The position numbers were made by a program, and so were the translations under genes. 64,000 nucleotides of DNA from Candidatus Binatia bacterium (lineage in GTDB: Bacteria; Eisenbacteria; RBG-16-71-46; SZUA-252): contig DASQJL010000073.1 in assembly GCA_035631035.1 (NCBI GenBank), positions 1 through 64,000 of the forward strand. The letters run 5' to 3'. Of this stretch, positions 1 to 50,197 are shown piece by piece. The notes beneath the pieces are model-generated. The model had not been told where the DNA came from, did not search any database, and saw only the letters and a program-made list of their open reading frames with translations. Position 1 is the stretch's first letter. Each line of letters opens with the position of its first letter.

Positions 1-1
1 G

Positions 2-340
2 TGGAAGGCGGCGAACGCGGGGGCGATCAACCTGGCGCCGCCCTTCCAGAAGCACAGCGTGGATCTGCAGGCCGATCCGGACGCCATCACCCAGGCGGGG
101 GTGCGCTCCATCACCGTGAAGATCTTCTACAACCTGGGCGACACCGAGCAGGTGAAGCAGGTGACGCTGAACGCTTCCAAGGGGCAGCTCTCCGACAAGA
201 TCGACTTCATCCTGCCCTCGGACAAGGCCAACTACGACTACCAGATCGACTGGCGCCTGAAGGGCAACAAGACCGTCTCGTCGGGCCGGAAGAGCGCGAG
301 CGACGCGATCCTCTTCGTCGACGAAGTCCCCGCGGGTTGA
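2..340 (+). CDS. C-terminal end of an unrecognised exported-cluster protein (5' truncated)
   Basis: The reading frame is open from base 2 to a TGA at 338-340, so the start lies upstream of the window. The visible 112 residues alternate short polar and hydrophobic stretches typical of beta-sandwich repeats (VRSITVKIFYNLGD, then a YDYQIDWRLKGN stretch). No catalytic motif or membrane segment is visible. The stop is 10 bases before the next gene, whose Shine-Dalgarno GGAGGAAG lies between them, so it belongs to the same operon as the exported proteins that follow. It could be a carbohydrate-binding or Ig-like surface protein; no family was recognised. Confidence 0.75.
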   Translation, partial: WKAANAGAINLAPPFQKHSVDLQADPDAITQAGVRSITVKIFYNLGDTEQVKQVTLNASKGQLSDKIDFILPSDKANYDYQIDWRLKGNKTVSSGRKSASDAILFVDEVPAG

Positions 341-350
341 GGAGGAAGCC

Positions 351-1832
351 ATGAGACGAACCACGATGTTTCGCATCGCGGCGCCGCTCTTCACCGCGGC
401 GCTCCTCCTGGCGGCGGCCGCGGCCAGCGCCCAGACCGACCGGGACTATCTCAAGAACAAGCTCTCGTTCCGCTACGTGGGCTCGCCGAACAACATCTCG
501 AGCGCGGTCGAGGTGCTGGACAACGCGGCCGTGGCCTCGGGCACCGAGAGTGGAACCTTCTGGGCCTCCCCTGCCGTGAGCGGACTTCAGGGCATGGTGC
601 GCAAGCTGCTGAAGGCGCCGGGACAGGGTGGCGACGCCAATCTCCAGTACGTGGTCGCCAAGACGGTCAAGATCCAGGACCGCCCGGTCATGATCCTCAT
701 GGTGAATGACGTTACGGCGCCTCTGTCCGCGGACGCCATGAACCACTGGGACGCCTGCGACGACGGCGCCGGCCACGCGTGGCCGTGCGCCTCGAACGCC
801 TCCACCACCGACGACCAGCGGCAGCAGTGCGCCGAGTCGCGCCACGAGACGCCACCGGCCCGGCTGGACGCGACGTGGGCGGGCCAGATGACGCTGGGCC
901 AGGCGGCATTCAACGGCGGCACCGCGGGGAGCGCCACCGGCACCTTCGTGCACGAGCTGGTGCACACGCAGGACCGCTCCGACCGCCGCGCGCACATGTT
1001 CACGATCAGCCGGCACTCGTACCACTACGGCTCGGACGGCACCCACTACGACATCGAGGCGGTCCCGAACCTGGCGTCGACGTACCAGGAAGGGATCGCG
1101 AATGCGGTCATGATGACGGTGGACGCGAACGAGGCCCAGCGCCTGTTCAACTGGTTCGCGAACAACGACGTCATGATGGTCGAGAAGAACGTCCCCGTGC
1201 CCCCGGGCACCGGAGCGGGCGCGGCGCCCTGCTGGACGGTGGTCACGACGCCCTCGGCCGACATCTGGCTCTACAACCAGCTCACGGCGGCCCACGTCCG
1301 GGAAGTGCAGCGCACGCCCAATCCGTATCCCAACTACGCCTACTTCCGCATCCGCGACCTGCCGCCGCGGTTCATCGTGCACAACGAGAACATCATCGCG
1401 CTCGTCTTCTCCGAGTACGCCCGGCACCTGGGGCTGCAGAAGTTCATGGACGCGCTGAAGACGAACGACCGGACGATCTTCCGCGTCTCCACGAGCCCGA
1501 TTGCCCAGCTCTACAACACCCTCTGCCGCGCCGGCCTCGAGGGGCGCCCGATCTCGGCGGTGACCGGCGTGAACGAGGCGGGGCCCAAGCCGTACCTGAT
1601 CCCGCTGGCCTACGCCGATTACTTCACCGCCTACCGCTCCCAGTCCAAGGCCGACTACAAGTCGATCTTCGAGGACATGCTGCCCCAGGAGTGGATCGAT
1701 CTCTACTGGGACGGCTACAAGGATACCGTTCGGAGCGCGGTGCCGATCGACGCGACCCACACGCCCCAGTTCACGAACCTGACCGACATCTCGATCGCGC
1801 TCGGGGTGAACCAGTCGACCGCGGAACATTGA
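351..1832 (+). CDS. Secreted putative zinc metallopeptidase, HELVH family, copy 1
   Basis: 493 residues. A signal peptide is clear (basic MRRTTMFR, then an Ala/Leu core ending ASA about residue 26), and GGAGGAAG precedes the ATG. The key motif is H201-E202-L203-V204-H205 followed by TQDRSDRR; an HExxH core with E247 in YQEGIAN 42 residues later matches the spacing of gluzincin zinc peptidases, where the later Glu is the third ligand. Zinc binding is inferred from these motifs only. Many Cys and aromatic residues flank the centre (CDDG, PCASN). It is a close paralogue of the next gene, and both sit ahead of a CARDB protein and a barrel protein, suggesting a joint envelope role. The natural substrate is unknown and I cannot assign a named peptidase family. 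Confidence 0.8.
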   Translation: MRRTTMFRIAAPLFTAALLLAAAAASAQTDRDYLKNKLSFRYVGSPNNISSAVEVLDNAAVASGTESGTFWASPAVSGLQGMVRKLLKAPGQGGDANLQYVVAKTVKIQDRPVMILMVNDVTAPLSADAMNHWDACDDGAGHAWPCASNASTTDDQRQQCAESRHETPPARLDATWAGQMTLGQAAFNGGTAGSATGTFVHELVHTQDRSDRRAHMFTISRHSYHYGSDGTHYDIEAVPNLASTYQEGIANAVMMTVDANEAQRLFNWFANNDVMMVEKNVPVPPGTGAGAAPCWTVVTTPSADIWLYNQLTAAHVREVQRTPNPYPNYAYFRIRDLPPRFIVHNENIIALVFSEYARHLGLQKFMDALKTNDRTIFRVSTSPIAQLYNTLCRAGLEGRPISAVTGVNEAGPKPYLIPLAYADYFTAYRSQSKADYKSIFEDMLPQEWIDLYWDGYKDTVRSAVPIDATHTPQFTNLTDISIALGVNQSTAEH

Positions 1833-1849
1833 GCGAGGAAACCACCTTC

Positions 1850-3340
1850 ATGACTTCCCTGTTCTCTTCCCGCCGCATCCTTCTCGCGGCCGCGCTCGCG
1901 ACGGTCCTGGGCCCCTGGGGCCCGGGACGCGCGGCGGCCGGCGAGACCGAGCGGACGTATCTCCGGACCAAGCTCGTCTTCTACTACGTGGACACGCCGA
2001 ACAGCGTCGCGCAGCTCCCGCAGATCCTGGACAACGCCGCGATCGCGAACGGCACCCAGACCGGCACGTTCTGGACGAGCACGAAGGTGCCCGGCCTGCA
2101 GCGGCTGGTGCGGGGACTGTTGCAGGAGCCCGGCAAGGGGGGGAACGACTATCTCCAGCTGCTCACCTCGTGGATCGTCAAGGTCCTCGACAAGCCGGTC
2201 ATGCTGACCCTGGTGAACGACGTGGACGCGCCGCTCTCGAGCCAGGCGATGGAGCGGTGGGACGCCTGCGATGACGGGAGCGGGCATGCGTGGCCGTGCG
2301 CCTCGAACATGGCGAGCCAGGACGACTGGCGCGCCCAGTGCGCCAAGAAGGAGGGGAAATCCGCTCCGGAGCGCCGCGACTTCTGGGCCGGCCAGATGAC
2401 CCTGGGGCAGACGGTGTTCAGCAGCGGCTCCGGCGGCGACCCGATGGCGACCTTCATTCACGAGCTGGTCCACACGCAGGACCGGTCGGACCGCCAGGAC
2501 GTCCGCTTCTGGCTGAGCAGCAAGTGGTACAACTACGGCTCCGACGGCAAGCACTACACCGTCGAAGCGGTGCCGAACCTGCGCGCCACCTACCAGGAGG
2601 GCATCGCGAACACGATGGCGCTGTTCATCGACAACGACCGGCGCAAGAAGATGTTCGACTGGTTCGCCAACAACGACATGGTCATCGTCGAGAAGGCGAT
2701 CCCCACCCAGACCGTGTATCTCAACACGCACCCCTGCGCGAACAGCGTCTGGGAGTTCCCCTCCCAGGACATCTGGCTCTACAACCAGCTCAAGGCCTCG
2801 GGGGCGACGGAGATCACGACCAACCCGATCCCGGGCTACGCCCAGTTCCAGATCCGCAGCATCCCGCCGAAATTCATCGTCCACAACGAGTACATCATCT
2901 CGATGACCTTCTCGGAGTACGCCTGGCACCTGGGCCTGGGCAAGTTCCTGAAGGCGCTGAAGACCAACGACGCCATGCTCTTCCGCACGCCCAACAGCCC
3001 CATCGCCAAGCTGTACGAAACCCTCTGCACGATGGGACTCGAGGGGCGCCCGCTCTCGTCGGTCCAGAACGTGAACGAGGCGGGGCCCAAGCCGTATCTC
3101 ATCCCGCTCGCGTACGCCGATTTCTTCACCAGCTACCAGTCCAGGACCAAGGCGGACTACGCCACGATCTTCGAGAACAAGCTGCCGCAGGCATGGGTGG
3201 ACATGTACTGGGACGGCTACAAGGACGCGGTCCGGTCCGCGGCGGTCATCGACGCCACGCACAAACCGCGGTTCGACCAGCTGACCGATATCGCCATGGC
3301 GCTGGGCGTCAATCAATCGGTGGCCGACGAGGCCCCGTGA
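1850..3340 (+). CDS. Secreted putative zinc metallopeptidase, HELVH family, copy 2
   Basis: 496 residues starting at the ATG at 1850 after GAGCGAGGAA. The same frame stays open far upstream but only as a shadow inside copy 1. A signal peptide runs to about AAAG at residue 30. H204-E205-L206-V207-H208 and E250 in YQEGIAN repeat the zinc-site pattern of copy 1. Long blocks are shared with copy 1 (GRPxSxV..VNEAGPKPYLIPLAYAD; WYNYGSDGKHY versus SYHYGSDGTHY), showing tandem duplication followed by divergence, for example a shorter Cys-containing loop near residue 300. The gene starts 17 bases after the copy 1 stop and is followed 31 bases later by the CARDB gene. Peptidase activity is inferred; a structural, non-catalytic role remains possible. 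Confidence 0.8.
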   Translation: MTSLFSSRRILLAAALATVLGPWGPGRAAAGETERTYLRTKLVFYYVDTPNSVAQLPQILDNAAIANGTQTGTFWTSTKVPGLQRLVRGLLQEPGKGGNDYLQLLTSWIVKVLDKPVMLTLVNDVDAPLSSQAMERWDACDDGSGHAWPCASNMASQDDWRAQCAKKEGKSAPERRDFWAGQMTLGQTVFSSGSGGDPMATFIHELVHTQDRSDRQDVRFWLSSKWYNYGSDGKHYTVEAVPNLRATYQEGIANTMALFIDNDRRKKMFDWFANNDMVIVEKAIPTQTVYLNTHPCANSVWEFPSQDIWLYNQLKASGATEITTNPIPGYAQFQIRSIPPKFIVHNEYIISMTFSEYAWHLGLGKFLKALKTNDAMLFRTPNSPIAKLYETLCTMGLEGRPLSSVQNVNEAGPKPYLIPLAYADFFTSYQSRTKADYATIFENKLPQAWVDMYWDGYKDAVRSAAVIDATHKPRFDQLTDIAMALGVNQSVADEAP

Positions 3341-3371
3341 CCCGACCGCCGCACCTCTGGAGGAGTCGATC

Positions 3372-6300
3372 ATGAAAGCGGTACCGACCGGGCGCGCGCT
3401 CGCCGCGCTCCTTCTGCTGTCGTTCGCGGCTTCGGGCGGCGGATTCCGAAGCGCACGAGCCGAGGACGCCCCCGCGGCACCGCCGGCGGCAGCCGGAGAC
3501 GCGTCGTCGGCCTCTCCCGTCAGCGCCACCGGGCTCCTCCCCATCTTCGGCGTCGCGGTCGATTTCGACGCGCTCCCGAACAACGCCAAGCCCGACGACG
3601 CCGTCGCCGCGCTGCAGAAGCTGTGGGACGGCCGGCTCAAAGACTCCGGCTTCAACGTGGTCCAGTTCCCCGTGGACGCGCGGGAGCTGGGCGACAAGGG
3701 AGCGGCGCGGCTGGCCAAGCTCTGCGGGTGGGCCAAGACGAACAACGTGCGGCTCGCGCCGGCGCTCCTGGGCGCTTCGCCCGGCGAGGCGCTCCCGGCG
3801 GACTATCCCGACAAGGTCGGGGCGTTCGCGACGAAGACGATCGAGCTGGTCGGAAAGGGCGATCCCGCCGCGTACGCGCAGATCATGTTCTACCAGCTGG
3901 AGCGGCCGCTGAACCACCCGGGCAACCACGGCCCGATGGACGCATCGCAGGCGGCGTCGCTGCTCGCGAACACCGTGACGAAGCTGCACGCGGCGGAGCA
4001 GGCGGCGCTGGCCGGCTCGTCGCTTCAGGCCACGCCCGTCCTCGCCGGCGTGTCGTTCGACTACGAGCTGATCAAGGTCGGCGCGATCGCGAACGTTCCG
4101 ATCACCGACGAGACCTATCAGCAGGCGTACGCCTCGGCGCACGACTACCTGGCCGCGGTGCTGGGCGCCGCCCCGGTGGACGTCGTAGGGCTGGAGTGGT
4201 TCCCGGGGAGCTTGAGCTCGGACGGCGTGGACCGCTTCCCCGATCTGATCGGCAAGCTGCAGACCGATTTTCCCGGGAAGCTCCTTATCGTGAACACCGG
4301 CTACTCCACGGCGGCGAAGGGCGAGGCCGACCAGACGCGGTACTACACGCAGACCTTCAACAACCTGAGCGATCTCCGCACGAATCAGGGCGTCGAGTCC
4401 TCCTTCGCGGGGATCCTCTGGCGCACCGCCATGGACCGGCCGGGCGGTGAGCCCGCGCCCCCCTCGTCCAAGACCCTCGACGAGATGGCCTCGTGGAACT
4501 GGCAGGACCGGGCCGCCGAGCTGACGCGCATGTGGAACGAGCCGGGGTCGGACTCGAAGGAGATGCGCTGGTGGGTCGGGCGCGTGGAGAGCCGGTTCGG
4601 GCTGGTGGGCTCGAGCAAGGACGCCTCGAAACCGGGGATGCCCAAGGCCGCGTGCGCGCTCCTCGCCCATCTCAAGACGTCGCTCGCCGCGGCGGCGATG
4701 AGCACCGGGGCGGGCCAGATCGCGGAGGAGCTGACGGCGGCCGCCTCGGGGCCGGGCGGGACCAAGGGGCTGGTCGGTGCGGTCAAGGACAAGCTGCAGG
4801 CCGCGCTCTTCGGAATGCTCGACGTTTGGGTGGCGAAGACGGCGGAGAACCTCGTGAGCGGCGGCGGCGGTGGCGGTGGTGACGGAGGCGGAGGCGGTGG
4901 AGGCGGTGGCGGTGGCGGAGCGCCGCCTCCCCCGCCGCCCGCGCCGACCAACACCGCCGACATCTACATCGCCGGCGCGTCGGTGGACAGCGAGATCAAG
5001 GCCGGATCGCCGGTCTCGATCTCGGTCACGGTCGGAAACGGCGGCCCGGCGACCGCGACCGGCGTCTCGCTCTACCTGAAGCAGAACAACGGCACGAGCG
5101 ACCTCACGCAGTCGACGCCGACCTCGATCACGTCGGGCTCCTCGCAGGTGGTCACCCTCAACTGGACGCCGGACCACCCGGGGAACTATCCGCACGTCAC
5201 CGTCGAAGCCTACTGCGACAACGATTCGCAGCTCGCCAACAACAAGACCGATCCCGTGGACATGGACGCGGCCCCCGGCGGTGGAGGTGGGGGCGGCGGC
5301 GGAGGAGGCGGAGGCGGGCTCGGCGGCGGGGGCCTGGGCGGCAAGCTCGGCGGCAAGTACGGTGGCGTCGTGCAGCTCGATCCCAAGGTTCTCGGCGGGG
5401 TGAAGGGGAACCTCGTCACGAAGACCGATCCCGGCTTCATCCACATCGAGGCGGTGCGCGGCATCAGCCCGATGCCGATGATGAGCACGATGTCGGCGCC
5501 GGGAGCGGGCGGCGGCGCTCCCATGGCGATGCGGATGAGCACCGGGACGGGTGGCGGCACCGCGAAGGCCGGCGGCGGCGTCACCGTGCTCGGCGGCTCG
5601 GGCGGAACCGGCGGCACGGGCGGGACCGGCGGCACGGGCGGCGGCACCGAGACCAGGGCCTACCGCATGGAAGCGGCGCCAAGCGGGCCGCAGCCGATCG
5701 CGCTCGCCTTCACCGTGACGAATCCCTTCGACCACACGTTCACCTCGGTCAAGGGGACGCTCAAGATCCAGGACAAGGTCATCGCGACCAAGGACCTCGG
5801 GGTCCTCTTCCCGCGGCAGCGCCGCACCGTCTCCTTCGCGCAGTGGACGCCGCCGAAGACGGGCACCTTCCCGGTTCGGATCGATCTCGCGGGCCTCGGG
5901 CCGGGCGGAAAGCCTCTCACCGCCTCGGCCATGGACCAGCTCACGGTCAACCCCGGCGGCGCCGCCGCACCCCCCGCGGGCGCGGCCACCCGCATGGTGA
6001 TCGGCGGGAAGCCCGGCGCCACGGGCGGCGCGCCCGGGGGTGCCGTGCCGGTCGCGATGACGCGCGGTCCCGGCACCCTGACGCAGACGCGGCTCCTCAC
6101 GCCGCTCGTCATGGCGCCCGTAGCGCCGGCGATGGCCGGCCCCGCGACGCGCTCCCTCTACCTCGCTCCGGGCGGAACGCGCGCCATCGGCGGGATGACC
6201 ACCTCGATCCTGGGGCTCACGCCCAACAGCGTCCTGCTCGCGCCCTTCCCCGTCCAGGCCGGCAACGACGTCGCGGTCACGATCCGCCTCTTCAACACCG

Positions 6301-7397
6301 AGCGCGCGGCGGCGAAGAGAGTGAAGGTCGAAGCCTACGTGGACGGCGACAAGCTGGGGGAGACCACCCTGGACGTGCCCGTCGCGCGGGCCGTCATCGC
6401 AAGCGGCTTCCCCACGTGGAAAGCGAAGCCGGGACGCCACGAAGTGCGCGCCGTCGTCACCGCCGGCGACCGGAGCGGGGCCGCCTCCAAGCCGGTCGAC
6501 GTGCGGCCCCCCAATGGCGTCGGGGCGGGTGGCGTCGCGATGCTCATGGGACGGGGCGCGTTCTCGCTCTCGACCCTGCAGATGACCACCGCCGACGTCC
6601 GGCTGAATCCTCTGGCCCCAGCCGCCGGAAACGCCGTGGACGTGTCGGTCCGCGTGCAGAACGCGGGCGCCGCGGACGTGAAAGGGGTCCGCGTGGAGCT
6701 CTTCGCCGACGGCACGCGCCTGGGCGAGGTGTCGGGGAACATCGCGGCCGGGAAGGATTTCGTCTTCAGCGGCTTCCCCAAGTGGACGGCCGCCTCGGGC
6801 GCGCACAAGCTGCTCCTCCGCGCGAACGCGGGCGGACGGATCGTGGAGGCGACGCGGGACGTCGCCGTGGGCGCGGCGATCATGCTGGCCAAGCCGCTCC
6901 TGACCACCACGACGCTCATCACCCCCTCAACGCAGACCGCCCCGCCGACCCTGCAGACCCCGACGGTGGGACTCCGCACCACCGCGGTCAGCGGCATGAC
7001 GATGATGATGGTGGCGAATCCGGATCTGCAGATCGGGCCGGGGGACATCGCGTTCCTGCCGATCTCGCCCAAGGCGGGCGACCCGCTCACCATCAACATC
7101 ACGGTCCGGAACGTGGGCACCGGCGCCGCGAACAATGCCACGGTGCGCGCCATTCTCCAGGCGGACGGCGCCGAGGCGACCCGCCGCGAGTTCCCCGTCA
7201 ACCTGGCGGCCTCCGGCATGACCAGCCTTTCCTGGCCGGTGACCACGCCGGGCGGGAAGATGCTGACCGCGGTGGTCACCGCGATCGTGGCGAACGATGC
7301 GCGGGCGGACAACAACCAGGCACAGGCCACGACGTCGGTGGCGATCGTTCTTCAGCGGCAGATCAGCCCGATGATCCTGCAAGTTCAGCCCAAGTAA
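3372..7397 (+). CDS. Giant exported protein: barrel-like N-domain plus multiple CARDB-like repeats and poly-Gly linkers
   Basis: 1341 residues, ATG preceded by GGAGGAG. Signal peptide about 1-30, then an Ala/Pro stretch. Residues about 50-400 look like a glycoside-hydrolase-type alpha/beta barrel: repeated hydrophobic strands such as VLAGVSFDYE, VDVVGLEWFPGS, LLIVNTGYS and FAGILWRTAMDRP. No catalytic pair can be fixed. Poly-Gly runs at about 497-520 and 635-660 and a GGTGGTGG run about 740-758 separate beta domains. At least five CARDB-like modules follow (about 528-636, 770-860, 946-1048, 1074-1165, 1216-1330), each with the adhesion-type pattern in which a D.....P..G..V.....V.N.G....V.V motif is followed by a WT/G strand. 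CARDB modules are known as cell-adhesion or peptidase-associated domains. It probably forms a long secreted or surface scaffold working with the two HELVH proteins and the downstream barrel protein. Confidence 0.8.
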   Translation: MKAVPTGRALAALLLLSFAASGGGFRSARAEDAPAAPPAAAGDASSASPVSATGLLPIFGVAVDFDALPNNAKPDDAVAALQKLWDGRLKDSGFNVVQFPVDARELGDKGAARLAKLCGWAKTNNVRLAPALLGASPGEALPADYPDKVGAFATKTIELVGKGDPAAYAQIMFYQLERPLNHPGNHGPMDASQAASLLANTVTKLHAAEQAALAGSSLQATPVLAGVSFDYELIKVGAIANVPITDETYQQAYASAHDYLAAVLGAAPVDVVGLEWFPGSLSSDGVDRFPDLIGKLQTDFPGKLLIVNTGYSTAAKGEADQTRYYTQTFNNLSDLRTNQGVESSFAGILWRTAMDRPGGEPAPPSSKTLDEMASWNWQDRAAELTRMWNEPGSDSKEMRWWVGRVESRFGLVGSSKDASKPGMPKAACALLAHLKTSLAAAAMSTGAGQIAEELTAAASGPGGTKGLVGAVKDKLQAALFGMLDVWVAKTAENLVSGGGGGGGDGGGGGGGGGGGGAPPPPPPAPTNTADIYIAGASVDSEIKAGSPVSISVTVGNGGPATATGVSLYLKQNNGTSDLTQSTPTSITSGSSQVVTLNWTPDHPGNYPHVTVEAYCDNDSQLANNKTDPVDMDAAPGGGGGGGGGGGGGGLGGGGLGGKLGGKYGGVVQLDPKVLGGVKGNLVTKTDPGFIHIEAVRGISPMPMMSTMSAPGAGGGAPMAMRMSTGTGGGTAKAGGGVTVLGGSGGTGGTGGTGGTGGGTETRAYRMEAAPSGPQPIALAFTVTNPFDHTFTSVKGTLKIQDKVIATKDLGVLFPRQRRTVSFAQWTPPKTGTFPVRIDLAGLGPGGKPLTASAMDQLTVNPGGAAAPPAGAATRMVIGGKPGATGGAPGGAVPVAMTRGPGTLTQTRLLTPLVMAPVAPAMAGPATRSLYLAPGGTRAIGGMTTSILGLTPNSVLLAPFPVQAGNDVAVTIRLFNTERAAAKRVKVEAYVDGDKLGETTLDVPVARAVIASGFPTWKAKPGRHEVRAVVTAGDRSGAASKPVDVRPPNGVGAGGVAMLMGRGAFSLSTLQMTTADVRLNPLAPAAGNAVDVSVRVQNAGAADVKGVRVELFADGTRLGEVSGNIAAGKDFVFSGFPKWTAASGAHKLLLRANAGGRIVEATRDVAVGAAIMLAKPLLTTTTLITPSTQTAPPTLQTPTVGLRTTAVSGMTMMMVANPDLQIGPGDIAFLPISPKAGDPLTINITVRNVGTGAANNATVRAILQADGAEATRREFPVNLAASGMTSLSWPVTTPGGKMLTAVVTAIVANDARADNNQAQATTSVAIVLQRQISPMILQVQPK

Positions 7398-7413
7398 AGG
7401 GGAGGTCCAACGC

Positions 7414-10400
7414 ATGTCTCGTGTCGCGCGCGCCGGGCGGAACGCCTCGGCCTGGCTCAGCGGTCTCGTTCTCGTCGCGTCGCTCGCGCCGTCCGCCCTC
7501 GCCCAGAGCCTGGGAGGGATCAGCGGTACGATGAGCGCGGGCCTGGCGTCCGCCTACCCCGCCGATTGGCAGCGGACGAACACGTTCGCCTCGATGCAGC
7601 TCACCAACAGCACGCAGGAAGTGGTCACCGCGGACATCAAGGTCACGCTGGTCCGGAACGGAACCGAGGTCGCGGCGACGCCGCCGGTCCAGCGCCTGTA
7701 CCCGGTCGGCGGCTTCTTCGTCCCCACGCCCGAGGTCACGACGTGGCAGTCGCTGCGTTTCGGCGGCAAGGTGGGCGAGGCGGTGGATCTCACGGGACGG
7801 CTCCCGGACGGCGTCTACACCGTCTGCGTCGACATCTCGAACGTGCGGGGGACCTCCTCGGGCGCGCAGTACACCGGATTCTCCCAGTGCGCCACGTTCT
7901 TCTCCTTCTTCCCCAAGCCGCCCCAGCTCGTCGCGCCGGGTGACGGCGGCCTGGTCTCGACGCCGTCGCCGGTCTTCCAGTGGACCCCCGTGCTCTCCAA
8001 CCTGGGCGGCCGCCTGCCCCACTTCTTCCGCCTGGTCGAGGTCTATCCGGGCCAGACGCCGGAGCGCGCGATCGAGGCGAACCGCGCCATCTTCGAGCAG
8101 GTGTTCGGGACCAACATGCCCGGCGGGGACCAGAGCAGCTTCACCTATCCCGCGTTCGCGCCCTTTCTGCTGAACGGTCACCGGTACGCATGGCGCGTCC
8201 AGGCGCTCCTCACGGTCGGAACGAGCGGCTCGGGCGGGTTGGGCACCACCCTGGCCGCCAAGCCCGGCGCCTCGTTCACGCAGTTCAACGCCCGTCCGCT
8301 CGGGGAAAACGAGGGGCGCAGCAAGGTCTACACCTTCACCTGGAGCTCCGATCCGATGGCGGCCGCGAAGGGCGCGCCCTCCGATCTCGCGCCCGTGGGC
8401 GAGGAGTCGCGCATGGGCAACGTCTGGAGCCCGCCCAACGGCGGCGCCGTCAGCCGCTACTCGGAGACCGGATCCGGCCAGGACGACGGCGGGATCTCGG
8501 CCGGACAGGCCGGCATGGAGGAGGGCGCCGCCGAGGGGAGCAACTTCGCCGACCGGCTCGCGCGCGTCATGGCCTCGCTCTGGAAGCAGGGCCCGGGCGC
8601 CGCGTCCGCGGTGGCGCGCGCGGGAGGCAAGGGTGCGATGGTGCCGCCGTCGGCTCCGTCGAGCGGCGTGGCGATCGCGGCCTCGCGGACCGGCTCCGGC
8701 GCCTCGGCTTCCGGCATCGGCTCCGGCGCCTCGACTTCGGGCACCGGCTCCGGCGTCGCGGCCTCGCGCACCACGCCGTCGTCCTCCGACTCGAGGCTCG
8801 CGGCCGCGCCCGATCCGGGATCCGACGCGCAGCCGGCCACCACGACCGAGACCGGCGCCGCCGCCGACAGCACCGCGCAGGCCGCGGTCGCGCCGCCGCC
8901 CCCGCCGCCGGCGGCTCCTCCCTCGAGCGACAGCCCGGGCCTGGGGCCCGGATGGGCGCGGCTTCACGGCACCGCCTCCCTCTCGGGCGAGGCCTACAGC
9001 AGCGACGGCCTGGCCACGCCGAACCGTCCCGACCGCAGCTCGCGGGTGGTGACGGGGCTCTCGGTCGGGGTCATGAAGGACCAGATGCGGATCCCGGTGT
9101 CGGCCCTCTTCTCCGACGACCAGGTCGCGTTCCGGCAGAACATCAACCAGGTCGCGGTCGCGCCGCGCTTCCGCTGGGCGGGGGTCACCGCGGGCAACTT
9201 CTCGCCGCAGTTCTCCAGCTACACGATGGCCGACGCGACGATCCTGGGCGGCGGTCTCGAGCTGGCCCCCAAGCAGTGGCACATCGGGGTGGTGAGCGGC
9301 CGCGCGCGCAAGGCGATCACGCAGACCTCGGTGCTCGGCATCGTCCCGCAGTTCGCGCGCAACATGACCGCGGGGCGGATCGGCTATGGCAACCCACTCG
9401 CCAATTCGGTCGAGTTCTCGATCCTGCACGCGACCGACGATCCCCACTCGATCGCGGGCGCGGAGAGCACGCTGACGCTCACACCCGAGGGCAACACGGT
9501 CTACTCGGTCAAGGCCCAGGGGCTGCTCCCGACGCGCCATCTCCGGGCGGTGGTCGAGACGGCGCTCTCCCGCTATGACCGGGATCGCCGCGCCGACGCC
9601 TCCTCGGTGGACGGCCGCGCGCTCGGCCTCCAGCTGTTCCACGAGACCGGCCTCACGCGGGTCGGCGTGAAGGCCGAGTACTTGAACGGCGGCTTCATGA
9701 CGCTCGGAAACTCCGGCATCACGGGGGACCGCGTGGACGTGGGGTTGAACGCGCACGTCGCGCTCCTCCAGGGCAAGGTGAACCTGGACGGCATGGCTGG
9801 GGTGCGGAACGACGCGGTGAGCGAGGCGCTGGCCGCCGAGACGCGGCGGCGCAACTACGGCCTGAACGGCTCCTGGCAGCCGGGCCCCCGCTTCGGGGCC
9901 GACGCGCAGATGGCGATCTACTCGAACGAGTCGGACGCCACCGACTCGCTCTTCCTCGGCAACAGCAACACGACGCGCGTCTACTCGGTGGCGCCTCACA
10001 CCGCCTGGACGGTGGGGCGCATCCAGAACTCCTTCACCTGCTCGGCCACGATGCAGAAGTCGGAGAACGGCGGCGTGATCGCGGACACGAAGAGCCTCAC
10101 CCTGCTCGGGAACTGGGCGGCCCAGGTCGGCGCCCCCCTCTCGATCAACCTGACCGGCAGCTACACCAAGACCGACTTCGAGATCGCGGTGAGCGAGCTG
10201 AGCGCGTTCGGACCCGGATTCACCCTCGCGGCCTTCCGCGCGAAGCTCCTGACCAACGCGCAGCTCCAGGTGACCCGGACGCGCACGGGGAACGCGGGCA
10301 CCGACACCGACCTCACGCCCCGACTGGAGATGCGCTGGGAGTTCGCGCCGCGCCAGGCGCTGGTGCTGCGCGGCAATTTCCGGCGGTTCCAGTACGCGGT

Positions 10401-10461
10401 GCCGGGTACGCCCGAGTTCAACGAGCGGATCGCGAGCCTGGAGTACGTCACGAATCTATAA
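7414..10461 (+). CDS. Outer-membrane beta-barrel protein with Ig-like N-domains and low-complexity linker
   Basis: 1015 residues, ATG 16 bases after the CARDB gene with GGGGAGG upstream. Signal peptide ends about residue 31 (PSALAQ). Residues 32-300 are beta-rich, periplasmic or Ig-like (VTADIKVTLVRNGTEV; PVFQWTPVLSN). Residues about 395-512 are Ser/Ala/Gly/Pro low complexity, including a nine-residue tandem repeat and a PPPPPP stretch. Residues about 515-1015 alternate polar and hydrophobic residues with aromatic girdle positions, as in a large outer-membrane barrel (GLSVGVMKDQ, VTAGNFSPQFSSYTMAD, LRGNFRRFQYAV). The terminal residue is Leu rather than the usual Phe. This could anchor the preceding secreted proteins or form their export channel; the function is not known. 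Confidence 0.78.
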   Translation: MSRVARAGRNASAWLSGLVLVASLAPSALAQSLGGISGTMSAGLASAYPADWQRTNTFASMQLTNSTQEVVTADIKVTLVRNGTEVAATPPVQRLYPVGGFFVPTPEVTTWQSLRFGGKVGEAVDLTGRLPDGVYTVCVDISNVRGTSSGAQYTGFSQCATFFSFFPKPPQLVAPGDGGLVSTPSPVFQWTPVLSNLGGRLPHFFRLVEVYPGQTPERAIEANRAIFEQVFGTNMPGGDQSSFTYPAFAPFLLNGHRYAWRVQALLTVGTSGSGGLGTTLAAKPGASFTQFNARPLGENEGRSKVYTFTWSSDPMAAAKGAPSDLAPVGEESRMGNVWSPPNGGAVSRYSETGSGQDDGGISAGQAGMEEGAAEGSNFADRLARVMASLWKQGPGAASAVARAGGKGAMVPPSAPSSGVAIAASRTGSGASASGIGSGASTSGTGSGVAASRTTPSSSDSRLAAAPDPGSDAQPATTTETGAAADSTAQAAVAPPPPPPAAPPSSDSPGLGPGWARLHGTASLSGEAYSSDGLATPNRPDRSSRVVTGLSVGVMKDQMRIPVSALFSDDQVAFRQNINQVAVAPRFRWAGVTAGNFSPQFSSYTMADATILGGGLELAPKQWHIGVVSGRARKAITQTSVLGIVPQFARNMTAGRIGYGNPLANSVEFSILHATDDPHSIAGAESTLTLTPEGNTVYSVKAQGLLPTRHLRAVVETALSRYDRDRRADASSVDGRALGLQLFHETGLTRVGVKAEYLNGGFMTLGNSGITGDRVDVGLNAHVALLQGKVNLDGMAGVRNDAVSEALAAETRRRNYGLNGSWQPGPRFGADAQMAIYSNESDATDSLFLGNSNTTRVYSVAPHTAWTVGRIQNSFTCSATMQKSENGGVIADTKSLTLLGNWAAQVGAPLSINLTGSYTKTDFEIAVSELSAFGPGFTLAAFRAKLLTNAQLQVTRTRTGNAGTDTDLTPRLEMRWEFAPRQALVLRGNFRRFQYAVPGTPEFNERIASLEYVTNL
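8692..8772 (+). repeat. 27-bp tandem repeat inside the barrel-protein gene
   Basis: The block beginning GGCTCCGGC recurs at 8692, 8719 and 8746, a strict 27-base period encoding GSGASASGI, GSGASTSGT and GSGVAASRT. It lies in the flexible linker between the N-terminal domains and the barrel, where copy-number change would only alter linker length. Confidence 0.75.
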
Positions 10462-10488: not shown

Positions 10489-10520
10489 GGGCGGGGGGCC
10501 AAGCCTCCCGCCCGTTTCCT
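10489..10520 (+). terminator. Candidate terminator of the surface-protein operon
   Basis: GGGCGGGGGG (10489-10498), a 5-base loop and CCTCCCGCCC (10504-10513) form a 10-bp GC stem with one G-U pair, followed by GTTTCCTTG. The trailing U-rich stretch is weak, so termination may be partial. Confidence 0.45.
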
Positions 10521-10618: not shown

Positions 10619-11764
10619 ATGCCCGATCCCATCCCGTTCCACCGACCCTCGATCACCGACGCCGAGGTCGACGCGGTCACCGCGACCCTGCGCTCCGGGT
10701 GGCTCACGACGGGGCCGCGCGTGCGCGACCTGGAGCAGATGGTCGCGGACTACGTCGGGATGCCTCACGCCGTGGCGCTCTCCTCCTGCACCGCGGCGCT
10801 CCACCTGGCGCTGATCGCGGCGGGGGTCGGCCCCGGCGACGAGGTGGTCACCTCCCCCTACACGTTCGTGTCCACCGGCGAGACGATCCTCTACCTGGGC
10901 GCCAGGCCGGTCTTCGTGGACGTGGAGCGCGCGACCAAGAACCTGAATCCCAAGCTCGTGGCCTCCGCGATCACGCTGAAGACCCGCGCCATCGTGTCGG
11001 TCTCGATCGCGGGGCACCCCTGCCGCGCGCACGAGATCGCCGCCGAGGCGAAGCGCCACGCGATCCCCGTCATCGAGGACGCCGCGCACTCGCTCACCGC
11101 CCGGATCGGCGACCAGCCGGTCGGGCGCCAGGCGGACATGACCTGCTTTTCGTTCTACGCGACGAAGGGGGTGACCGCGGGAGAGGGAGGCATGGTCGTC
11201 ACCGAGCGCGCGGAGTGGGCCGACCGCGTCCGGCGGCTTTCCTTGCACGGGCTCTCGGCGGCGGCGTGGTCGCGCTACGACAAGGGCGGCTGGTGGGACT
11301 ACGACGTTGTCGAGCTCGGCTACAAGTACAACCTGACCGACGTGCAGGCCGCGCTGGCGCTGGCGCAGATGCGCCGGGCCGACGCCATGCGCGCTCGCCG
11401 CGAGGCGATCGCGGCGCGCTACACGGAGGCCCTCGACGGGATCCGCGGCCTGACGACCCCGGCGGTCCTGCCCGGCGTGCGGCACGCGTGGCACCTCTAC
11501 CAGATCGAGGTGGTGGAGGGCGGTCGCACCGACCGGAACGCGCTGGCGCTCGCGCTGCGCGAGGACGGGATCGGCACGAGCGTGCACTTCAAGCCGCTCC
11601 ACTGCTTCCCCTGGTACCAGGAGCGGCTGGGCGTTCGCCCGGGACAGTTCCCCGCCGCCGAGAGCTGCTATGCCGGGACCCTGTCGCTCCCGATCTGGCC
11701 CGACATGACCGACGCGCAGGTGGACCGCGTGGCCGAGCGGGTCCGGGCGCACCTGGGGGGCTGA
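10619..11764 (+). CDS. DegT/DnrJ/EryC1/StrS-type PLP sugar aminotransferase
   Basis: 381 residues from the ATG at 10619 (MPDPIPFHRPS). An in-frame ATG at 10520 would add 33 low-quality residues crossing a tandem repeat, so the later start is preferred. Family landmarks: N-terminal SITDAEVDAV...SGWLTTGPRV, SSCTAALHLAL for phosphate binding, EDAAHS, and the PLP lysine K183 in SFYATKG..GEGG. The C-terminal HFKPLHCFPWYQE block is typical of nucleotide-sugar aminotransferases. Such enzymes transfer an amino group from glutamate to UDP-keto sugars for surface-glycan building. It converges on wecB with a one-base gap, supporting a glycan role. The exact sugar cannot be named. Confidence 0.93.
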   Translation: MPDPIPFHRPSITDAEVDAVTATLRSGWLTTGPRVRDLEQMVADYVGMPHAVALSSCTAALHLALIAAGVGPGDEVVTSPYTFVSTGETILYLGARPVFVDVERATKNLNPKLVASAITLKTRAIVSVSIAGHPCRAHEIAAEAKRHAIPVIEDAAHSLTARIGDQPVGRQADMTCFSFYATKGVTAGEGGMVVTERAEWADRVRRLSLHGLSAAAWSRYDKGGWWDYDVVELGYKYNLTDVQAALALAQMRRADAMRARREAIAARYTEALDGIRGLTTPAVLPGVRHAWHLYQIEVVEGGRTDRNALALALREDGIGTSVHFKPLHCFPWYQERLGVRPGQFPAAESCYAGTLSLPIWPDMTDAQVDRVAERVRAHLGG

Positions 11765-11765
11765 C

Positions 11766-12866
11766 CTACCGCAGCGCCTGCCGCAGCATCGCCACGATCC
11801 GCTCCGCGGCCTTCCCGTCCCCGTAAGGATTCGCTCCCGACGCCATCGCGGCGTAGGCCTTGGGATCGTCCAGCAGGCGCGACGCCTCGCCGACGATCTT
11901 CTCGCGATGCGGTCCCACCAGCTTCACCACCCCCGCCTCCACCGCCTCGGGGCGCTCCGTCTCGTCGCGCAGCACCAGCACCGGCTTCTTCAGCGAGGGC
12001 GCCTCTTCCTGGATCCCTCCCGAGTCGGTGAGGATCAGGTGGGACGCGGCCATCAGGTCGGAGAACGCCTTGTACTCGAGCGGCTCGATCAGGTGCACGC
12101 CCGCCGCCGACCCGAGCGCCTCGCGCGCGGGGCCCGCCACGCTCGGGTTGGGGTGGACCGGGTAGACCACGTCGACGTCGGCGTAGCGCTTCACCAGGTC
12201 GCGCACCGCGGCGAAGATCTCCTGCATCGGCGCCCCGAAATTCTCCCGCCGGTGCGCCGTCAACAGCACGAGCCGCTTGCCGCGGAGCGGAAGCGCCGGC
12301 GCGCGCGGCGGCTGCATCGCCACGACCTCGAGGAGCGCGTCGATGACCGTGTTGCCCGTGACCACGACCGAGCCCTCGGCGATCCCCTCGCGCAGGAGGT
12401 TCTCCCGCGCGCGGCGCGTCGGGGCGAAGTGGCGCGACGCGATCACCGACGTGACGCGGCGGTTGACCTCTTCGGGATAGGGATAGAGGTTGTCGTGGGT
12501 GCGGAGCCCGGCCTCCACGTGGCCGACGGGGATCTTCCGATAGAAGGCCGCGAGGGACGCGGCCATCGTGGTCGTGGTGTCGCCCTGGACCAGGAGGAGA
12601 TCGGGGTTGGTTTCGGCGAGATAGCTCTCGAGCCGGGTCAGGGCGCCGACCGTGATCTCGGTGAGGGTCTGCCCCTCCCGCATGAGGTCCAGGTCGTGGT
12701 CGGGGACGATCCCGAACAGCCCCAGGACCTGGTCCAGCATCTGGCGATGCTGGGCCGTGACGCAGACGAGCGAGCGGATCCCGGGTTCGCGCGCCAGGGC
12801 CTTCAGCACCGGCGCCATCTTGATGGCCTCGGGGCGGGTCCCGAACACGCTGAGAACGGTCTTCAC
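11766..12866 (-). CDS. wecB: UDP-N-acetylglucosamine 2-epimerase (non-hydrolysing)
   Basis: 366 residues, usual length. The N-terminal GTRPEAIKMAPV, the central HVEAGLRTHD and LTDSGGIQEEAP near the C-terminus are signature blocks of the WecB/MnaA family, which converts UDP-GlcNAc to UDP-ManNAc in the cytoplasm for surface polysaccharides. The start is GTG. No Shine-Dalgarno is visible in the bases before it, and a TTGACG/TAACTC pair would place the transcript start at or next to the GTG, so the message may be leaderless. It is convergent with the aminotransferase gene. Confidence in the family is high; the downstream glycan is unknown. Confidence 0.96.
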   Translation of the reverse strand: MKTVLSVFGTRPEAIKMAPVLKALAREPGIRSLVCVTAQHRQMLDQVLGLFGIVPDHDLDLMREGQTLTEITVGALTRLESYLAETNPDLLLVQGDTTTTMAASLAAFYRKIPVGHVEAGLRTHDNLYPYPEEVNRRVTSVIASRHFAPTRRARENLLREGIAEGSVVVTGNTVIDALLEVVAMQPPRAPALPLRGKRLVLLTAHRRENFGAPMQEIFAAVRDLVKRYADVDVVYPVHPNPSVAGPAREALGSAAGVHLIEPLEYKAFSDLMAASHLILTDSGGIQEEAPSLKKPVLVLRDETERPEAVEAGVVKLVGPHREKIVGEASRLLDDPKAYAAMASGANPYGDGKAAERIVAMLRQALR

Positions 12867-33907: not shown

Positions 33908-36187
33908 TCAACGCACCAGCACCAGACGCCGCACCAGCTCGCGTCCCGCCGCGCGGAGCCGGTAGAAGTAGATCCCCGCGGCCGCGGGGCGTCCGGCCTC
34001 GTCGCGACCGTCCCAGCGGATCAGGTACTGCCGCGCGGTCGCCTGATCGGAATCGACCAGCGTTTTGACCAGGCGCCCCCGCGCGTCGAAGACGCGCAGG
34101 TCGGCCGCCACCGGGGCGCCGCTGCCCGCGAGCGTGAACGGGATGTCGGTCGCGCGGAGGAACGGATTGGGGCGGTTCTGCCCCAGCACGACGCCCGCCG
34201 CCGAGGGCGGTATCGCCACGTCGGTGGTCGCGCCGGTCGTGAAGCGGAACGGCTCGCGCGCGCTTCGCCCATGGCTCAGGGCATCGGTGGCCACGACGCT
34301 CCATTCGTAGGTGGTGCTCGGGCCGAGGTAGTTCGCCACCTGGGCCGAGCTGTCGGTCGTGGTCTTGCTGAAGACCACCTGGTTCGTCGTGAGATTGCGA
34401 AGGGTCACGGTATAGGTCAACGCCTCGTTCTGCGGATCGGTGGTGCTCCGCCAGCGCAGGGTCAAAGGCGTCGTGGTCACGGTCGTGTTGTTCGACGGAA
34501 GCAGGAGATTGAACGGGCGGGGAAAGACGGGCGCGCCCAGGGACGAGGACCAGATCGCGGCCTGGACGTTGATCCGGCCCCACCCGTAGATGCTGTCGGG
34601 GATGTTGGCGCGGTCCGCCGTTGTCATCAGGGCCTGACGAACCTGGGCGACGGTCCACTCGGGGTGCGCCTCGCGCACCAGCGCCGCGGAGCCTGCGACG
34701 AGCGGCGTCGAGAGCGACGTGCCATTCGCCTGCGCGATGGCGACGTTGTTGCTAGCGACCGCCCAGTAGGTGCCTACGCCCTGGGCCACCACCTCCGGCT
34801 TGATCCGGCCGTCCGAGGTGTTCCCGCGGCTGGAGAAGCTGGCGATGCCGTTGTTCGTGTCTACCGCCCCGCACGAGAGGATGCTGTCGGCATCGGCAGG
34901 GCTGTCGAGGGTGCGTCCGCCGGGTCCGGAGTTCCCCATGGCGTTGGCCACGACGATGCCGCGACGGGCCGCGAGGATGGCCGCCTGCGCCACGATGGTC
35001 GTATGCCCATTCAGGTCGTTCCAGGTGTAGTCCGTCTGCCCCGGGTCGAAATCGAGATACGCCAGCGACGACGAGATTACGTCCACACCCAGCGAGTCGG
35101 CCCATTCCGCCGCCGCAGCCCAGTTGTCCTCCTCGGCATGCGTCTCGGTGGGGACGTACTCGGTCTTCGCGAGCGCGAACGTCGCGTTGTACGCGGGGCC
35201 AATCAGGTTATTGATCCAGTACCCTCCCGCCACCGCCCACGTGCCGGTCCCGTGGTCCCACTGTCCCGAGGCGTCCGGCGGGATCTGGTTGGCGGTTTCG
35301 CTGTCCTCCCAGACGAAGTCCCACTCGGCGATCCGCTTGAGCTGGATCGTCGCCGTGTGGCTCTTGTTGAAGCCGGTGTCGAACATCGCGAGGATCACGC
35401 TGGCGCCGCTGTATCCGGAATCGTGAACGGCGGGAACGTTGATGCTGGTGAGCTGGGTGATTGACGGGCCGTAGCCGGTCGAGGGCGGCTTGTTCAGGGC
35501 CGAGGCGCGAGCCGCGCCGGGAGCCGGGGCCGCCCCGTGCTCATCCGTGCTCGGCGCGCCCTCGATGGCTGGCCCTTCCGAGACCGGCGTTATGGGCCGG
35601 GAATACTGAAGCGGCAGGATCGCGCGCACGAACGGAAGGGTCGCGATCCGGCGCGCCTCCCCGTCGTTGGCCATCACGCTCACCGCGTTCATCCACTTGG
35701 AGACGTGCCGCACGCCCGCCCCCGTCGCGGCGACGGCTTCGACGTAGCGAGCCGGCACCGGGACGTCGTCGAAATCGGGCGCGTACTGGCCCCCCTGCTC
35801 TTTCGCGCGGCGGGCCCGCGCGCGCTCGGTGAGCCGCGCTCCGGCGTCGCGCACGGCCGCGCCGAACGAGCGCTCGTCGAACACTGCCTTGTCGGTGAAT
35901 ACGACCCAGAGCGCGGTGCGCCCCTCGGCGGCGATCCGTGCGACCGCCGACGCGCTGAGCACCGGCTGCATGCGCGGCGCGGGGGGCGTGAAGCGGGAGC
36001 TCCGCTCGAGAGCCTCGGCGCGCGCCGCCTTCGACCGCGCGTCGGGCGCGGGGGCCGGGGCAGCGGAAGCAGCGGAGGCGAGCGGCGAGATCCCCAGAAG
36101 GAGCAGGGCGAGACCGCCGAGAGCGGCTCGGGAACGTCGGATCGCAGGACAGAGGAGCCCGCGGTGCGAGGCGAGATGAAGATCCAT
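33908..36187 (-). CDS. Secreted subtilisin-like serine protease (S8) with FlgD-like C-terminal sorting domain
   Basis: 759 residues from the ATG at 36187 (GGGAG ten bases upstream); an ATG at 36196 is also in frame. Signal peptide to about 41 (SAASA). Propeptide-like region 70-235. S8 triad: D270 (VILAMFDTG), H312 (WDHGTGT), S491 (NGTSLSTPLVAG), with oxyanion N419. The motif around His is HGTGTWAVAGG rather than HGTHVAG. A fibronectin-type segment (about 530-660) and a FlgD-like beta domain (about 665-759: QNRPNPFLRATDIPF, GRLVKTLV, IRWDGRDEAGR, AGIYFYRL) follow; the latter is the tail usually linked to type-IX-like sorting. It lies 22 bases after the EF-G-like gene. Confidence 0.93.
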   Translation of the reverse strand: MDLHLASHRGLLCPAIRRSRAALGGLALLLLGISPLASAASAAPAPAPDARSKAARAEALERSSRFTPPAPRMQPVLSASAVARIAAEGRTALWVVFTDKAVFDERSFGAAVRDAGARLTERARARRAKEQGGQYAPDFDDVPVPARYVEAVAATGAGVRHVSKWMNAVSVMANDGEARRIATLPFVRAILPLQYSRPITPVSEGPAIEGAPSTDEHGAAPAPGAARASALNKPPSTGYGPSITQLTSINVPAVHDSGYSGASVILAMFDTGFNKSHTATIQLKRIAEWDFVWEDSETANQIPPDASGQWDHGTGTWAVAGGYWINNLIGPAYNATFALAKTEYVPTETHAEEDNWAAAAEWADSLGVDVISSSLAYLDFDPGQTDYTWNDLNGHTTIVAQAAILAARRGIVVANAMGNSGPGGRTLDSPADADSILSCGAVDTNNGIASFSSRGNTSDGRIKPEVVAQGVGTYWAVASNNVAIAQANGTSLSTPLVAGSAALVREAHPEWTVAQVRQALMTTADRANIPDSIYGWGRINVQAAIWSSSLGAPVFPRPFNLLLPSNNTTVTTTPLTLRWRSTTDPQNEALTYTVTLRNLTTNQVVFSKTTTDSSAQVANYLGPSTTYEWSVVATDALSHGRSAREPFRFTTGATTDVAIPPSAAGVVLGQNRPNPFLRATDIPFTLAGSGAPVAADLRVFDARGRLVKTLVDSDQATARQYLIRWDGRDEAGRPAAAGIYFYRLRAAGRELVRRLVLVR

Positions 36188-48425: not shown

Positions 48426-50197
48426 TCCGCCGTTCGTTCGTCCCGTCCCTCGCGGCCCTGCTCCTTCTCCTTGCCGCGCCGCTCTCCGGCGCGCGCGCCG
48501 AGGCCACCACGGCTGCCAAGCCCCACAAGGCAGCCAGGCCCGGAACACCTGGCGCCGAGCAGGTCCGCTTCGAGAAGCTCCTCGAGCAGTCGATGCGGGA
48601 GCGGTTCGCCGCCAATCCCTCGTACGCCACGTACATGGGCGTCCACGACTTCGACACGCGGCTCGAGAACACGTCGAAAGCCGCGATCGACGCCGAGGCG
48701 GCCTCGATGCACCGCGCGCTCGCCGCCCTCGCGACGATCGACAGGGCGAAGCTCGACGCCGACGCGCGGATCGACTACGACCTCTTCGCCAGCGATCTCA
48801 ACGGCCGCCTCTTCCGGATGACCGAGCTTCGCGACTGGGAGAAGGATCCGGGCACCTACGGCTACGGCTGGGGGATCGGGAATCTGATCGCGCGGAACTT
48901 CGCGCCTCCCAAGACGCGCCTCCGGGCGGTGATCGCGCGGCTCCGCCAGGTCCCGCGGCAGCTGGACAACGGCCGCGCCAACGTGAAGAACCCCCCCGAG
49001 CTGCTCGCGCGCTTCTCCGCGGAGGACCTCGAGGGGCTGGTGGCCTACCTCGACACCGACGTGCCCCGCGCGTTCGCCTCGGTGAAGGACGCCGCGCTCT
49101 GGAAGGAATACGACGCGGCCAAGCTCGACGCCCAGAAAGCGACGCGCGCCTACGTGAAGTGGATCCGCGACGAGCTGATCCCGAACGCGCACGGCAGCTA
49201 CGTGCTCGGCGAGGACGCGTTCCGGAAGCGGCTCCACTACGAAGAGATGATCGACGTGCCGATCGATTCGCTCCTTTCCATCGGCATGCGCGAGCTCTAC
49301 CGCCTGGAGGCGCGGTACGAGGACGCGGCCGGGCGCGTGGCGCCGGGCGCGCCGGTCGAGATGGTCGAGGGGATGATGCGCAGCGACCACCCCTCCAAGG
49401 ACAAGCTGCTCGACGAGGTTCGCGCGCTGCTCAACGACATCCGCGACTACTGCATCGAATCGAACTTCATCCCGATCCCCGCCGGCGTGCCGCTCACGGT
49501 GCGCGCGACGCCGGTGTACGAAGCGAGCCGCTCCTTCGCCTCGTTCGACGGGCCCGGCCCCCTCGAGACGAAGGCGCGCGACTCCTACTACAACATCTCC
49601 CTTCCGGCCGCCGGCTGGGATTCGGCGCGCGTCGAGCAGCATCTCCAGGCCTACAGCCGGTGGACCCTCGCCTCGGTCTCGATCCACGAGTGCTACCCCG
49701 GCCACTACGTGCACTCGCTCTACATGCGGGAGGCGCCGACCTACGCGCGAAAGACGATGGGGTGCAGCTCCTTCGCCGAGGGATGGGGCCTCTATACCGA
49801 AGAGGCGCTGTTCGATCACGGCTACGCCCGCGGCGACGCCATGAAGGAGTTCGGCATGCTCCGCTGGGCGCTGGTCCGGTCCTGCCGGCTCCAGGTCGGG
49901 ATCCGCGTCCACACGCGCGGCATGACGATGGACGAGGCGACGCAGTTCTTCATGGACCACGCGCACATGGAGCGCGCGAACGCCCAGCAGGAGGCCTATC
50001 GCGCCGCCTTCGATCCGCTCTACGTCGTCTACACGATCGGCGCCATGCAGATCCGAAAGCTCCGCGACGACGTCCGCGCCAAGGAGGGCGCCTCGTTCGA
50101 TCTCGCCCACTTCCACGAGCGGATCCTCTCCGAGGGATCGCTGCCGGTCGCGCTGCTCCGGCGCATCCTCCTGAACGACGAAGGGCCCTCGCTATAG
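48422..50197 (+). CDS. Secreted DUF885-family putative metallopeptidase
   Basis: 591 residues from the ATG at 48422; the longer upstream frame lies inside the permease gene. Signal peptide to about residue 26 (GARA). Mostly helical. The DUF885 zinc motif HECYPGHYVHS occurs near residue 422 (canonical HExxPGH), followed by EGWGLYTEEAL, whose Glu is expected to complete the site. The family is structurally related to M3-like helical metallopeptidases, but substrates are rarely known. Coupled to the permease gene by an ATGA overlap. Confidence 0.92.
   Translation: MIRRSFVPSLAALLLLLAAPLSGARAEATTAAKPHKAARPGTPGAEQVRFEKLLEQSMRERFAANPSYATYMGVHDFDTRLENTSKAAIDAEAASMHRALAALATIDRAKLDADARIDYDLFASDLNGRLFRMTELRDWEKDPGTYGYGWGIGNLIARNFAPPKTRLRAVIARLRQVPRQLDNGRANVKNPPELLARFSAEDLEGLVAYLDTDVPRAFASVKDAALWKEYDAAKLDAQKATRAYVKWIRDELIPNAHGSYVLGEDAFRKRLHYEEMIDVPIDSLLSIGMRELYRLEARYEDAAGRVAPGAPVEMVEGMMRSDHPSKDKLLDEVRALLNDIRDYCIESNFIPIPAGVPLTVRATPVYEASRSFASFDGPGPLETKARDSYYNISLPAAGWDSARVEQHLQAYSRWTLASVSIHECYPGHYVHSLYMREAPTYARKTMGCSSFAEGWGLYTEEALFDHGYARGDAMKEFGMLRWALVRSCRLQVGIRVHTRGMTMDEATQFFMDHAHMERANAQQEAYRAAFDPLYVVYTIGAMQIRKLRDDVRAKEGASFDLAHFHERILSEGSLPVALLRRILLNDEGPSL

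Follow-up and report, generated by a model that had tools for sequence, protein, structure and literature searches.

A conserved operon of exported proteins in Candidatus Eisenbacteria, encoding four tandem paralogues, a giant protein with predicted TIM-barrel and CARDB domains and a putative outer-membrane barrel

The window, the whole stretch of DNA analysed here, consists of bases 1–64000 of contig C73 (64,773 bases) in the genome (G000) of a little-known soil bacterium of the Eisenbacteria, a group known mostly from metagenome assemblies. At its left end are located five co-directional genes, separated by gaps of 10, 17, 31 and 16 bases (Table 1), in agreement with a preliminary description of this DNA, which had reported five such genes with gaps of 10 to 31 bases. 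Base 1 of the window is also base 1 of the contig, so the first gene is cut at the contig edge. In all four complete products the most hydrophobic stretch is N-terminal, which is not the case for three control genes of the window, and in the same crude hydrophobicity test an N-terminal export-signal pattern was found in every operon product tested. Of the five products earlier assigned as exported, this supports the four complete ones, the first gene being present only as a 112-residue fragment. The hairpin located 3' of the last operon gene is a weak terminator candidate, as terminator-like sites are about as frequent in this region as chance or shuffled sequence gives. RNA and tRNA scans found none in the window, and PADLOC returned no anti-phage defence match for the locus.

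Table 1. Features at the left end of the window.
Feature	Coordinates	Strand	Basis or content
C4 3' end (112 aa of the beta-rich C-terminal part; YYVP family)	2..340	+	contig edge; identity to L009:7848-9878
Metalloprotease paralogue 1, exported, gluzincin-type by motif, 493 aa	351..1832	+	HELVH at 951-965, EGIA downstream, Sec-like N-terminus
Metalloprotease paralogue 2, exported, gluzincin-type by motif, 496 aa	1850..3340	+	HELVH at residues 204-208; E250 as candidate third ligand
Giant exported protein, 1341 aa	3372..7397	+	TIM barrel (predicted), helical region, Gly-rich linkers, several CARDB domains
TIM-barrel domain of the giant (probable pseudo-glycosidase)	3540..4436	+	fold model, Foldseek, catalytic Glu not conserved
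Exported protein, 1015 aa	7414..10461	+	N-terminal Ig/Fn3-like region; C-terminal putative outer-membrane beta barrel, ~500 aa
Terminator-like hairpin, 11 bp stem, 10 G-C	10489..10513	+	consensus match only

The first gene, previously read as encoding a beta-rich protein, corresponds by sequence comparison to the last 112 residues of a protein of about 680 residues: its truncated product is 87% identical to residues 564–674 of a 676-residue protein (L009:7848-9878). Contig C68 of the same genome carries, in matching orientation, the genes that we call A, B, C1, C2 and C3 and most of C4; it stops at residue 482 of C4, while C73 resumes at residue 564, with a short assembly gap of about 250 bases between them. 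Read in this way, the window appears to hold the right half of a longer operon that continues upstream on C68. The first 141 bases of C73 are identical to those of contig C53 (window 1-141; L044:1-141), so that the contig probably ends here because the assembly forked where two copies of a C4-type gene meet. From the synteny with relatives and the higher identity to the L009 array copy (87% for C73 versus 77% for C53), we infer that C73, and not C53, continues C68. The contig edge had thus hidden the C array from the preliminary description.

Put together, the operon is about 20 kb long and contains 9–10 genes, in the order A-B-C1-C2-C3-C4-X-giant-barrel, where A encodes about 740 amino acids, B about 400 and C1 to C4 about 600–730 each. 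This order is found in five of the 47 genomes of the Candidatus Eisenbacteria class, belonging to two families (G000, G001 and G006 in family f1; G023 and G041 in family f8), having been partly pieced together across contig ends and frameshifts. Exactly the same five of the 47 class genomes are matched by a C-family profile and by a profile of the giant's N-terminal domain, and among 309 genomes the giant is present in none beyond those five. The genes flanking the operon vary among the five genomes; a constant order despite differing flanks rules out a chance gene cluster. Among the operon proteins scanned, only the CARDB-containing giant reaches the Pfam or NCBIfam cut-offs, and weak matches to MJ0548_C, TPR_DOCK and EstP were treated as noise. 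Neither the libraries compared nor a narrow literature search yielded a named system with these genes, and in that search the part of the Eisenbacteria literature covered contained nothing bearing on this operon. The earlier proposal of an undescribed surface operon is borne out to this extent, and the operon may be of a new category in its gene content, a statement to be taken with caution since it relies on absence from these libraries and from that narrow search.

The four C proteins, which we name the YYVP family, each have their own export-signal pattern and beta-rich C-terminal domains. In a tree, C1, C2, C3 and C4 form separate clades, each containing the genes of the same position from both families. 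They are thus old paralogues, and the genes at any one position are orthologues. Their age and the retention of their positions argue for separate roles. The C family matches nothing in Pfam, in NCBIfam (where only the C-terminal part was scanned) or among PDB sequences. A structure model of the family (pLDDT 75, pTM 0.41), compared with PDB folds, gave no match from which a function can be read, only a generic beta-sandwich with a TM-score of about 0.1. Profile comparison shows that B and the C family share about 78 N-terminal columns.

A second, stand-alone C4-like gene is present in four Eisenbacteria genomes (L044:2-1887, L045:3082-6660, L048:4073-8090 and L049:244-4237), located away from any giant-protein gene. 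It adjoins the gene for an exported VWA7_N/Het-C-like protein, weakly similar to zinc phospholipase C, so that there are two locus types in which a C4 relative neighbours a putative metalloenzyme.

The giant had been described as a 1341-residue CARDB scaffold. Its CARDB domains are confirmed (E 8e-29), but residues ~57–355 are modelled as eight alternating strands and helices in (beta-alpha)8 order, so the protein is predicted to be more than a CARDB scaffold, with an N-terminal TIM barrel of the glycoside hydrolase (GH) clan-A fold. The mean pLDDT of the N-terminal model is 58, with values mostly between 70 and 90 over the initial two thirds of the barrel, falling off after that. Foldseek retrieves clan-A glycoside hydrolases, best the GH53 endo-galactanase (2gft, E 1.6e-8) and the GH39 enzyme PslG (4zn2, E 1.1e-7), with GH35, GH1 and GH5 structures also among the matches, and a TGYS sequence is present at the beta-7 position. 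The domain has no GH match in Pfam and no credible relative among PDB sequences. Unlike in clan A, the catalytic glutamate pair is not conserved: the beta-4 and beta-7 positions, which were located from motifs and the order of strands rather than by residue-by-residue superposition, read E/E/E/G/D and N/G/G/E/D in five homologues. The domain differs from clan A also in being fused to Gly linkers and CARDB domains. Given the loss of the catalytic positions, the barrel is probably a sugar-binding pseudoenzyme, and on its sequence we do not class it as an active glycoside hydrolase. Long poly-Gly runs are present in the giants of family f1 and absent from the f8 homologues.

The same resemblance to GH53, PslG, GH35, GH1 and GH5 structures, together with a DegT aminotransferase gene that adjoins the operon, would suit a glycan-foraging locus, in which the TIM domain would hydrolyse glycosides and the barrel protein would be a sugar porin. 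We judge this improbable: besides the substitutions at the glutamate positions, no SusC, SusD or TonB-receptor family match was found in the operon proteins scanned, and the downstream polysaccharide-type genes lie past the terminator-like site and are not syntenic. The operon resembles Sus-like polysaccharide utilisation systems in combining an outer-membrane protein with exported sugar-related proteins, but differs from them in having no SusC, SusD or TonB-receptor homologue and no intact glycosidase.

Directly past the operon, at 10619-12866 of the window, are a gene for a DegT/DnrJ aminotransferase and, convergent to it, one that by sequence appearance encodes a UDP-GlcNAc 2-epimerase-like protein. 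Neither neighbour is syntenic in relatives, and a polysaccharide locus comprising these DegT and WecB-type genes was rejected on this ground and because they lie beyond the terminator-like site.

The C-terminal 500 residues of the last protein are conserved among the operons, with 33–63% identity. The protein contains 16 amphipathic-strand peaks, compared to 9.8 (s.d. 2.7) in shuffled sequences, which makes an outer-membrane beta barrel plausible. It has no Pfam match, and so neither a POTRA match nor an FhaC/Omp85 barrel match that would relate it to two-partner secretion. Homologues of the last gene are present in all five operons, with scattered relatives elsewhere, including a frame-shifted copy in G006 (L100:6423-9040) and a divergent one in G002 (L101), which adjoins a 1956-residue open frame in a genome without a C array.

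The two proteases, correctly recognised beforehand as HExxH paralogues, are 58% identical to each other. The zinc motif residues H204, E205 and H208 are invariant in all aligned homologue rows, as is E250-G251-x-A253 in the protease alignment (A7); one distant relative has EAWA. The family matches no curated peptidase family or solved sequence in Pfam, NCBIfam or the PDB, so that the term gluzincin-type refers to the motif alone and not to a named peptidase family. The closest named relative found is in a metagenome-assembled genome record of Candidatus Eisenbacteria (VBOR01000053.1). When the protease profile was compared with 385 genomes, one distant relative was found outside the class, in G165, a member of a second phylum; in a second search, 29 of 40 genomes from that phylum were found to contain relatives, with up to ten matches per genome. 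The best-scoring of these keep the pattern T(F/M)VHExxH...YGxDGSH...NE...E(G/A)WA, close to TF(V/I)HELVHTQDR...YGSDGxHY...QEGIA in the window proteases. Retention of a similar pattern in such distant relatives supports a gluzincin-type zinc site. Like the gluzincin metalloproteases of clan MA, the window proteases are exported and combine HELVH with a downstream EGIA (HEFAH...EGWAEF in the relatives), but unlike them they match no sequence family in Pfam, NCBIfam or the PDB.

These proteases occupy slot X of the operon, between C4 and the giant. There are two of them in G001, as in the window, and one in G006, where the copy is missing some 55 residues N-terminal to the motif. An exported protein unrelated to the protease fills the slot in G023 and G041; the proteins of these two genomes are 28% identical to each other. 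Because an unrelated protein fills the slot in two of the five operons, the proteases appear to be an optional, lineage-specific part and not the operon core, which on sequence is the four-paralogue C array. The barrel-anchored protease and scaffold complex first proposed thus misplaces the centre of the operon. The genes likewise occur separately only in part: the C array and the giant are always together in the five genomes, while the proteases are missing from two.

The operon could also be viewed as serving mainly for proteolysis at the surface, by which peptides would be scavenged, with the other proteins holding the proteases. The two tandem genes with intact zinc motif and the multiple copies of the family in the second phylum fit such a role; it is nevertheless very improbable, since both f8 operons are without any such protease and, in G165, the closest protease relative and the C genes are on separate contigs. 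In another genome of the second phylum, a C-family array (G394:C125:35647-42001) and a distant protease relative (49337-50080) are about 7 kb apart.

The C family itself extends to the second phylum. G165 matches the C profile (profile-profile probability 99.1, E 7e-19 over 299 columns), and members are present in 13 of 40 genomes of its phylum, often as tandem genes; a combined C profile finds none in the rest of the 385 sampled genomes, beyond the two phyla. The motif WYYVPxKPRLA...P.F...Y...GG.LQ is common to both. At seven second-phylum loci, C genes adjoin a gene for a secretin (PF00263, E no higher than 1e-41), and most of these loci also encode small lipoproteins along with a giant lipoprotein of NHL/TIG type. 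The cluster of small lipoproteins, secretin, C genes and giant lipoprotein was observed at L098, L123, L125, L126, L129, L130 and L131; several other C genes of this phylum are located away from any giant protein. The second-phylum C clusters contain no homologues of A, B, X, the giant or the barrel protein, the only link being the short N-terminal motif shared by B and C, so the family may be used differently in the two phyla. The second phylum is an independent case in which C genes accompany a giant, presumably surface-located protein and an outer-membrane pore, and the presence of an outer-membrane protein and a giant, repeat-rich exported protein in both settings is the best clue to the function of the family.

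This arrangement resembles secretin-based outer-membrane export clusters, where the second-phylum C genes adjoin a secretin and a giant lipoprotein, but in the window operon a putative barrel of another family is present and there is no secretin. The window operon gave no match to a known secretion or polysaccharide locus, although the C family does neighbour secretins elsewhere. The seven secretin loci, and the variation of slot X as would be expected of cargo, speak for a dedicated export machine, in which the barrel or secretin would be the channel, C1–C4 and B would either act as chaperones in the periplasm or be part of the channel, and the giant and the protease would be the secreted cargo. 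No ATPase, inner-membrane or POTRA/two-partner secretion family match was found among the operon proteins scanned, PF00263 has no match in them, the second-phylum secretin profile finds no homologue in the Eisenbacteria loci read, and the individual export signals and beta-rich C-terminal domains of the C proteins are against such a machine. We regard it as rather unlikely, yet it lies close to the display reading set out below, and sequence cannot separate the two.

The interpretation that we favour, and to which we give an even chance, is that C1–C4 act together with an outer-membrane protein in the display or export of a giant adhesive protein, the protease being a lineage-specific add-on. 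A single operon of about 20 kb would make an exported, outer-membrane-associated surface assembly, in which C1–C4 and B would be non-interchangeable subunits. Together with the barrel protein, these would anchor the giant at the outer membrane or pass it through, and the TIM barrel of the giant would most likely bind a sugar polymer rather than cut it. In family f1, X would be one or two zinc metalloproteases maturing the assembly or processing a target, and in f8 an unrelated exported protein; overall, X would be a lineage-specific accessory. A broader proposal, which we advance tentatively and as somewhat less probable, is that the YYVP family marks a class of outer-surface assembly not recognised before. 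In it, tandem paralogues that cannot replace one another would fix giant proteins, adhesive or of propeller type, at the outer membrane. Two phyla would share this class, with a barrel as outer-membrane partner in Eisenbacteria and a secretin in the second phylum.

If the display reading is correct, the operon encodes a novel type of surface assembly at the outer membrane, made of proteins from a family that is unannotated in the libraries searched. Its conservation provides a defined list of parts for expression and imaging, and the zinc-protease family, absent from Pfam and NCBIfam, can be assayed. Elsewhere in the window, at 33908-35971 on the minus strand, a gene encodes a subtilisin-family protease with a C-terminal FlgD_ig domain. 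Stretches like this carboxy-terminus end several exported proteins in relatives, and may be a sorting domain.
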